DNA of 5,207 bases from Candidatus Sumerlaeota bacterium (GTDB lineage: Bacteria; CG03; SLGR01): assembly GCA_007136585.1 (NCBI GenBank), contig SLGR01000149.1, positions 1-5,207 on the forward strand, read 5' to 3'. The stretch's first letter is position 1, and each line of letters begins with the position of its first letter. Shown piece after piece: positions 1 through 1,598 of this stretch. Position numbers and translations under genes: made by a program. The notes under the pieces are model-generated. The model was not told the DNA's origin and searched no databases. It saw nothing but the letters and a program-made list of their open reading frames with translations.

Positions 1-445
<445 letters not shown>

Positions 446-481: not shown

Positions 482-497
482 AAATTTTCAATGAGCT
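482..497 (-). promoter_or_regulatory. boxA-like rRNA antitermination element in the 16S leader
   Basis: On the minus strand this reads AGCTCATTGAAAATTT. The core GCTCATTGAAAA matches 9 of 12 positions of the E. coli rrn boxA GCTCTTTAACAA and is followed by ATTT as in E. coli. It lies about 37 nt before the mature 16S 5' end and just after a hairpin-forming sequence, so the order hairpin then boxA resembles the boxB-boxA order of rrn leaders. In known systems boxA RNA recruits NusB/NusE (S10) to make polymerase resistant to Rho. That role here is inferred from sequence and position. Confidence 0.65.
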
Positions 498-505
498 ATT
501 TTTAA

Positions 506-540
506 ATGCGGCGAATACTATAGCAGTATTCCAACCGCAT
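506..540 (-). repeat. Nested inverted repeat covering promoter P2; hairpin in any P1 transcript
   Basis: The outer arms ATGCGG (506-511) and CCGCAT (535-540) enclose the inner arms GAATACT (513-519) and AGTATTC (525-531). The inner loop is 5 nt, and one side has 1 and the other 3 unpaired bases between the two arm pairs. All 13 arm pairs are perfect. The repeat begins at the P2 -35 box and ends at the predicted P2 start, so P2 transcripts lack it. Transcripts from P1 or from upstream genes would carry it as a hairpin about 8 nt before boxA. It could act as a boxB-like hairpin, a processing site or an operator; which one is not shown by the sequence. Confidence 0.7.
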
Positions 541-545
541 GTCAA
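517..545 (-). promoter_or_regulatory. rRNA promoter P2 (TTGACA-17-TATAGT, extended -10)
   Basis: The -35 box TTGACA is at 540-545 and the -10 box TATAGT at 517-522, with an optimal 17-nt spacer. TGC precedes the -10 box, giving an extended -10 motif. The predicted start is near 507-511, leaving a leader of about 62-65 nt before 16S. The discriminator after the -10 box is GC-rich (ATTCGCC), as often seen in promoters under stringent control. The stretch 551-572 just upstream is almost pure A/T and sits where an UP element would be. This is a near-consensus sigma-70 promoter and the probable main rRNA promoter. Confidence 0.85.
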
Positions 546-553
546 GCCTTTCT

Positions 554-581
554 ACTATATATATTTTTTTATGAGTGTCAA
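554..581 (-). promoter_or_regulatory. rRNA promoter P1 (TTGACA-16-TATAGT), upstream and tandem to P2
   Basis: A second TTGACA lies at 576-581 and a second TATAGT at 554-559, separated by 16 nt that include an A7 run. It uses the same pair of hexamers as P2. Only 8 nt separate its -10 box from the P2 -35 box, so its predicted start (about 547) falls at the edge of the P2 -35 box and the two promoters cannot easily be occupied together. The alternative is that this A/T tract serves only as the UP element of P2 and the TTGACA is accidental. Confidence 0.6.
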
Positions 582-606: not shown

Positions 607-630
607 TTTAATATTAACATAAATATTAAA
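607..630. repeat. All-A/T inverted repeat between mltG and the rRNA promoters
   Basis: The arms TTTAATATT (607-615) and AATATTAAA (622-630) are perfect 9-bp inverted copies with a 6-nt spacer, followed on the plus strand by the rest of an A9 run (628-636). The repeat lies 26 bp upstream of the P1 -35 box. It may be an A/T-rich promoter-upstream element or a protein-binding site. A/T-only palindromes also arise easily by chance in AT-rich spacers, so no function is assigned. Confidence 0.45.
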
Positions 631-671: not shown

Positions 672-1598
672 CTATCGACGTAAGAGCATCTGTTTATTCA
701 GGTGCTCCCGGTAGGTTTTGCTGAACTCATGGGAGCCGTCTTCAAGAGCAAAGAAGAACAGATACCCTGAGTCGTCAGGATATAAAGCAGCCTTTATCGA
801 TTCAGACCCGGGGCTGCATATAGGAGTAGGGGGCAGCCCGAATCTCCTGTATGTGTTGTAAGGGGAATCTATCTCAAGGTCGGCATATGTCAATCTGTCG
901 CGGTGTTCTCCCAGCGCAAACTGCACAGTGGCGCAGGATTCAAGATACATCCTCTTTCTGAGCCGCCGGTGAAAAACCCCTGATATAACGGTACGTTCTT
1001 CGGGAACACGGGCCTCTCTTTCTATTATTGAAGCCAGTGTGATTACTTCGGATACACTCATCCCGAGTTCCTCTGCCCTGCTGCGGTACTCATCAGTAAA
1101 CTCTGCCTGGAACCTGGCCCGCATCTTACCCGCAACGCTTCTTATGCTTTCTCCGGGGAAAAAATCATATGTATCGGGAAAAAGAAAACCCCTCAGGTTC
1201 CTATCAAGAACATACTCCATAAACTCCTCACGGCTATCTATCACACCCTCCCGGTAAAGACGGGCGGCGATCTGTTCCGCGGTAAACCCCTCCGGTATGG
1301 AGACCCGGATAAGAACGTTCGGTCCGGTAGTAAGTTTTCTTCTCAGGGAAGAAAACCTCATATTTTCTCTAAGCCTGTAAACACCTGCCAGGATATTTCC
1401 GGCATCTCCCGTAATTTTCATATACAAAAGAAAAAACCGGGAACTTGAAATAATATTCTCTTCTTCCAGAAGATAAGATATCCGCCTTGCGCTCATCCCT
1501 TTTCTTATCTCTATATCCCTGGTATCCCCTGCTCTGCGGGCGCAGGCTGAGACTGAGAATAAAAGAGCCGAAACTGCTATAAATTTAATTGTTTTCAC
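672..1598 (-). CDS. mltG: Endolytic murein transglycosylase MltG (YceG family), predicted lipoprotein
   Basis: MltG cleaves nascent peptidoglycan glycan strands at the outer face of the cytoplasmic membrane and limits strand length. The 308-aa product has a basic N-terminus, a short hydrophobic stretch (residues 6-18) and a lipobox VSAC with Cys19. A LysM-like subdomain follows at about residues 28-92, and the catalytic YceG domain at about 95-305. The motif TLASIIEREA holds the expected catalytic Glu193. Further family blocks are GVFHRRL (208-214), ATVQFALG (223-230), YNTY and GLPPTPI (247-260), and HEFSKTYREH near the end. Length is normal to slightly short. The start is GTG, with GAAGGG nine bases upstream. 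A TAG in another frame abuts this GTG, suggesting coupling to an upstream frame. It is last in the protein operon. Homologues usually have an uncleaved membrane anchor, so the lipobox is notable. Confidence 0.94.
   Translation of the reverse strand: MKTIKFIAVSALLFSVSACARRAGDTRDIEIRKGMSARRISYLLEEENIISSSRFFLLYMKITGDAGNILAGVYRLRENMRFSSLRRKLTTGPNVLIRVSIPEGFTAEQIAARLYREGVIDSREEFMEYVLDRNLRGFLFPDTYDFFPGESIRSVAGKMRARFQAEFTDEYRSRAEELGMSVSEVITLASIIEREARVPEERTVISGVFHRRLRKRMYLESCATVQFALGEHRDRLTYADLEIDSPYNTYRRFGLPPTPICSPGSESIKAALYPDDSGYLFFFALEDGSHEFSKTYREHLNKQMLLRR

Follow-up and report, generated by a model that had tools for sequence, protein, structure and literature searches.

Does the inverted repeat that lies over the promoter nearest the 16S rRNA gene act as an RNA hairpin, does it act as a DNA element, or is its symmetry accidental? 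The question is raised by the window, the 5,207-nt stretch of DNA analysed here, which is one whole contig (G000:C225) of an uncultured bacterium whose genome comprises 257 contigs. On the minus strand, an SNF-family transporter gene, cinA, a LigT/2'-5' RNA ligase-like gene, a short unassigned ORF, mltG and 16S rRNA follow one another in this order, and no second rrn copy was found among the 257 contigs.

The mltG-16S leader was compared with those of the only two relatives for which it was available, G001 of the same family (PWEK01000023; record "Elusimicrobia bacterium", isolate T1Sed10_83R1) and G006 of the same order (PWMP01000014; record "Elusimicrobia bacterium", isolate CSSed10_282R1), in both of which mltG also lies just upstream of 16S. 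CSSed10 and T1Sed are datasets of a soda-lake sediment survey (PMC6146748). The phylum was sampled with 16 genomes, the 5' end of 16S being present in six; the mltG contig of G003 stops short of P2.

The repeat and the promoter that it overlaps

The features of the window to which the analysis refers are as follows.

1 to 445, minus strand: 5' part of the 16S rRNA gene (Rfam RF00177, 411.6 bits), 445 nt, after which the contig ends
471 to 479, minus strand: GAGTCGGGT, unchanged across the three leaders, 5' strand of the processing helix between 16S leader and trailer
485 to 496, minus strand: boxA-like GCTCATTGAAAA, assigned by resemblance, 9 nt after the repeat
506 to 540, minus strand: nested inverted repeat with exact arm pairs, a fold of -16.1 kcal/mol and a 35-nt frame shared with two orthologous leaders
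540 to 535 and 511 to 506, minus strand: outer arms of the repeat, ATGCGG and CCGCAT, pairing exactly
531 to 525 and 519 to 513, minus strand: inner arms of the repeat, GAATACT and AGTATTC, pairing exactly
524 to 520, minus strand: loop of the repeat, GCTAT
517 to 545, minus strand: promoter P2, TTGACA (545 to 540), 17-nt spacer and TATAGT (522 to 517), 11/12 consensus
554 to 581, minus strand: promoter-like P1, TTGACA (581 to 576), 16-nt spacer and TATAGT (559 to 554), 11/12 consensus
610 to 618, minus strand: GTTAATATT, aligned to GTTATTATT and GTTAGTATT of the relatives in the mltG-16S intergenic alignment (weak evidence)
672 to 1598, minus strand: mltG (YceG family; Pfam PF02618, E 5e-87), same-direction upstream neighbour of 16S

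Both pairs of arms had been described as perfect in the original prediction and are indeed exact at 540 to 506. The two sides of the repeat are unequal (TTG at 534 to 532 opposite G512), such that stems of 6 and 7 bp are separated by a 3/1 internal loop, and in the sense RNA the addition of two wobble pairs results in a 15-bp imperfect stem. Folded as rRNA-sense RNA, the repeat has a minimum free energy of -16.1 kcal/mol (z -4.4), which none of 200 shuffled sequences equalled; RNA from position 511 onward, close to the product of P2, showed no unusual fold (z 0.3). Elsewhere in the genome, 406 of 50,086 overlapping 35-mers fold at -16 or better. The energy of the repeat alone is thus only moderately rare and not extraordinary, and its standout features are position and conservation. 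An intrinsic terminator at this site was considered and rejected, given that only three to four U residues follow the stem and that a terminator scan found none there.

The repeat had been said to span P2 from the -35 box to the start. This frame fits, with adjustments at both ends: only the last base of the -35 hexamer, A540, is shared, the 17-nt spacer and the -10 hexamer are enclosed, and the repeat ends 3 nt beyond G509, the likeliest start of P2 as judged by spacing. Since the 5' arm occupies the interval from the -35 to the -10 hexamer, transcripts from P2 cannot contain it, and the proposal that P2 RNA would lack the hairpin is borne out by this arrangement. RNA from P1 is predicted to begin at about position 547 with the entire repeat included; such RNA, or read-through from mltG, would carry the hairpin directly before boxA at a gap of 9 nt, also as proposed.

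P2 is found at the matching place in both relatives, as TTGACA-17-TATTAT in G006 and TTGACA-17-TAATAT in G001. No counterpart of P1 (TTGACA-16-TATAGT) was found at the same place in G001 or G006, where weaker 9/12 candidates occur approximately 80 to 95 bp above P2. In all three genomes an element corresponding to GTTANTATT (window 610 to 618, minus strand) is conserved between mltG and P2, and in G001 and G006 the aligned element sits at the -10 of such a 9/12 candidate; it may therefore mark an older upstream rrn promoter. In the G006 leader (L071), a strong GAAA-loop hairpin, TCCCGGGAAACCGGGA, lies directly upstream of the P2 -35 box and is absent in the other two.

Judged by resemblance, all three leaders have a boxA before 16S, which in the equivalent position of G001 and G006 reads GATCTTTGAAA. 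The 16S trailer of G001 (L070, 2032 to 2095) contains ACCCGACTC, which co-folds with GAGTCGGGT. The latter was therefore taken to form the leader-side strand of the leader-trailer helix and rejected as a regulatory motif; the trailer of the window lies beyond the contig end. When genome contigs were scanned for boxA together with GAGTCGGGT, the leaders of G001 and G006 were recovered and the remaining matches were in unrelated phyla, as judged by record titles. A scan of viral contigs for more relatives gave a single match, which reads as unrelated sequence.

Symmetry of the promoter frame in related leaders

Alignment of the 35-mers with MAFFT inserted gaps that hid their common frame, and pairs were instead counted ungapped from the ends of a promoter-anchored frame of 35 nt, which begins at the last -35 base and ends 11 nt beyond the -10, shortly after the predicted P2 start. 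The ends of this frame are AAGTTTTTAA/TTAAAAGCTT in G006 and AAAGC/GCTTT in G001, so that the letters differ while the arms are complementary. Uninterrupted runs of 7, 10 and 5 pairs were obtained for the window, G006 and G001, respectively. When compared with shuffles of the letters outside the hexamers, the run length gave p 1.4e-4 for G006 and p 0.012 for G001; with Watson-Crick pairs alone, the corresponding values were p 0.05 (a run of 3) and p 0.004. Fisher's method combines the two run-length values to approximately 2e-5 if the relatives are independent, which they are not, since the 3'-arm core AAAGCTTT is common to both, perhaps by descent.

Similar runs are rare at control sites. Among 93 further bacterial rrn promoter sites, from 76 rrn leaders, a single one has a run of at least 5. 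At other TTGACA-17-TATWNT sites of the three genomes the longest run was 2, so that 0 of 30 reached 5, a few of these sites being counted twice from overlapping loci. Pairs 2 to 5 are altered on both sides between the relatives with pairing kept, in a sample of three sequences in which G001 does not fold. Compensatory change in relatives had been named as the test by which an accidental symmetry would be exposed, and in the two relatives the symmetry survives it. The recurrence of the frame with differently paired arms, together with the rarity of such runs at control sites, argues that the repeat is probably a product of selection rather than an accident; the sample behind this is three sequences of one order, with A+T-rich arms that pair easily.

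Coincidence would require that a partly self-complementary -10, an A+T-rich region and a conserved start, GC[AT]TTTAA, which happens to match the sequence after the -35, together produced the symmetry. Such an origin is made easier by a fold energy that is not rare in the genome, by the mere five pairs of G001, by the predominance of A-T among the pairs of G006, and by the prospect that AAAGCTTT was inherited. It has more difficulty in accounting for an identical frame in three of three genomes and for the low counts at control sites, and we consider it unlikely, if no weaker than any other alternative.

RNA hairpin or DNA element

Our preferred explanation, held tentatively and at somewhat less than even confidence, is a lineage-specific leader hairpin in the position of boxB, present only in RNA that comes from upstream of P2. 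In upstream transcripts the ten outer pairs of G006 have probabilities of 0.73-1.0 and the seven outer pairs of the window 0.58-1.0. By contrast, the five outer pairs of G001 surround a 25-nt gap and have a probability of 0.01, such that a stable hairpin just 5' of boxA folds in the window and in G006 but not in G001. The three pairs that depart from Watson-Crick geometry (U-G and G-U in the window, U-G in G006) are wobbles in rRNA-sense RNA only. The antisense strand of the window folds at -14.1 compared with -16.1 for the sense strand; antisense G006 gives no fold, and antisense G001 folds slightly better than sense.

The mechanism that we infer begins with a repeat selected for its symmetry and laid exactly over the promoter nearest 16S. 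The acting form would be an RNA hairpin in leaders begun above P2, whether at P1, at the older upstream promoter or by read-through from mltG. In these, the hairpin would take the place of boxB just before boxA, where it could hold the 5' end of upstream transcripts in a folded state and leave boxA accessible to NusB/S10 or, alternatively, help polymerase to clear the P2 region. P2 transcripts, on the other hand, would begin within the 3' arm and run straight into boxA without a hairpin. The use of P1 and P2, RNA as the acting form and its role there are all inferred from sequence, and a mechanism of this kind is plausible. The original RNA interpretation receives partial support only. The explanation is weakened by the failure of G001 to fold, by the unconserved place of P1, by a sample of three sequences of one order and by the dispensability of boxB in E. 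coli; the function of the repeat may be modest.

An alternative in which the DNA itself acts would make the arms two half-sites for a regulator, or a cruciform-prone site, covering P2 from -35 to start and controlling its use. In each of the three genomes the position of the arms is fixed relative to promoter landmarks, at a separation of approximately three helical turns, a constraint that an RNA hairpin would not require. Symmetric half-sites also co-vary, so the paired changes are compatible with this alternative, and G001 need not fold as RNA. A loosely defined shared core, A[AT]G[CT]...GC[AT]T, can be recognized in every one of the three. However, most arm letters differ among the relatives: the outer arms start with ATGCGG in the window, AAGTTT in G006 and AAAGCA in G001, sharing only A[AT]G[CT], so the arm sequence that an operator for a dimeric regulator would be expected to keep in close relatives differs among the window, G006 and G001. 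Nor does the site mark other promoters of the genome; ATGCGG-N18-28-CCGCAT occurs at one other place, giving 2 matches compared with 3 for a reversed-pattern control, which is background. Single-site operators exist. The deviations from Watson-Crick pairing, in three cases only, favor sense RNA. The operator over P2 that had been suggested as an alternative thus keeps its landmark-tied arms and loses any recurrence above background; overall, we regard a DNA element as improbable, with a standing close to that of coincidence.

The distance from the end of -10 to the boxA core is 22 nt in the window and has a median of 29 nt in 55 leaders. The P2-boxA distance of the window is therefore ordinary, and transcripts from the last promoter that have no room for a boxB are common. 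That the repeat is a true boxB-type antitermination element, with P1 and P2 RNAs differing in antitermination strength, as the original prediction suggested, is a weak claim and appears very improbable: the order of hairpin and boxA and their 9-nt spacing agree with it, but half of the scored rrn leaders have at most 29 nt from the last -10 to boxA, so promoters too near boxA for a boxB are common, and in E. coli boxA alone is necessary and sufficient, the role of rrn boxB having been called puzzling (PMC10250234).

Comparison with known leaders and operators

Among bacterial rrn leaders, the 48 nt preceding boxA form hairpins more often than expected (p <= 0.05 in 19 of 81), which favors the RNA reading. 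A hairpin before boxA is thus common in these leaders, and the unusual part here is that the hairpin lies over a core promoter. A literature search found no description of such a promoter-hairpin arrangement. Two leaders from one genus of another phylum (L160 and L161; G227 and G087) have their last rrn promoter, TTGACA-16-TACTAT, inside the hairpin GGTGGGT...ACCCAT, whose loop contains the -10; this overlap of promoter and inverted repeat is similar to that of the window but not identical.

Symmetric operators that overlap sigma-70 promoters place an inverted repeat over the -35, the -10 and the start. The repeat of the window is likewise placed, but its arm letters are not conserved and it does not recur above background. 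Leaders from another family of the same phylum (G009, G010 and G012) resemble the window in having a hairpin directly before boxA; unlike the window, their boxA lies within approximately 20 nt of the 16S start (L005, L006, L007 and L214), and in G010 and G012 the hairpin is downstream of the promoter. For G010, co-folding gave no evident leader-trailer helix.

If the preferred explanation is correct, promoter and leader-RNA structure are superimposed, with selection on one constraining the other, and an entire structural element sets the P1 transcripts of an rRNA operon apart from its P2 transcripts. A broader formulation, which we put forward as a rather unlikely conjecture, is that in this order the core promoter adjacent to the rRNA genes itself makes up a conserved hairpin, both arms and loop, serving as promoter when DNA and as structured RNA when read through from upstream, so that there would be two leaders whose ratio reports the promoter used. 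If the explanation is not correct, the locus simply joins the other rrn leaders in which a hairpin precedes boxA.

The closest comparison is with the E. coli rrn leader, which likewise has tandem promoters, a hairpin before a boxA-like sequence and, further on, the 5' half of the leader-trailer helix. In E. coli this helix is essential, and deletion of boxB has little effect (PMC10250234); the arrangement described here, if true, bears on why rrn leaders have boxB-like hairpins that are seemingly dispensable in that organism. The E. coli elements (P1, P2, boxB, boxA, boxC and leader-trailer helix) are such that boxB follows just after P2, and both P1 and P2 RNAs carry it (PMC10250234). A boxB-boxA leader of this kind would be expected to have its hairpin downstream of every rrn promoter and so in every transcript. 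In the window, by contrast, the 5' arm lies within P2 and the hairpin coincides with that promoter, leaving P2 RNA without it.
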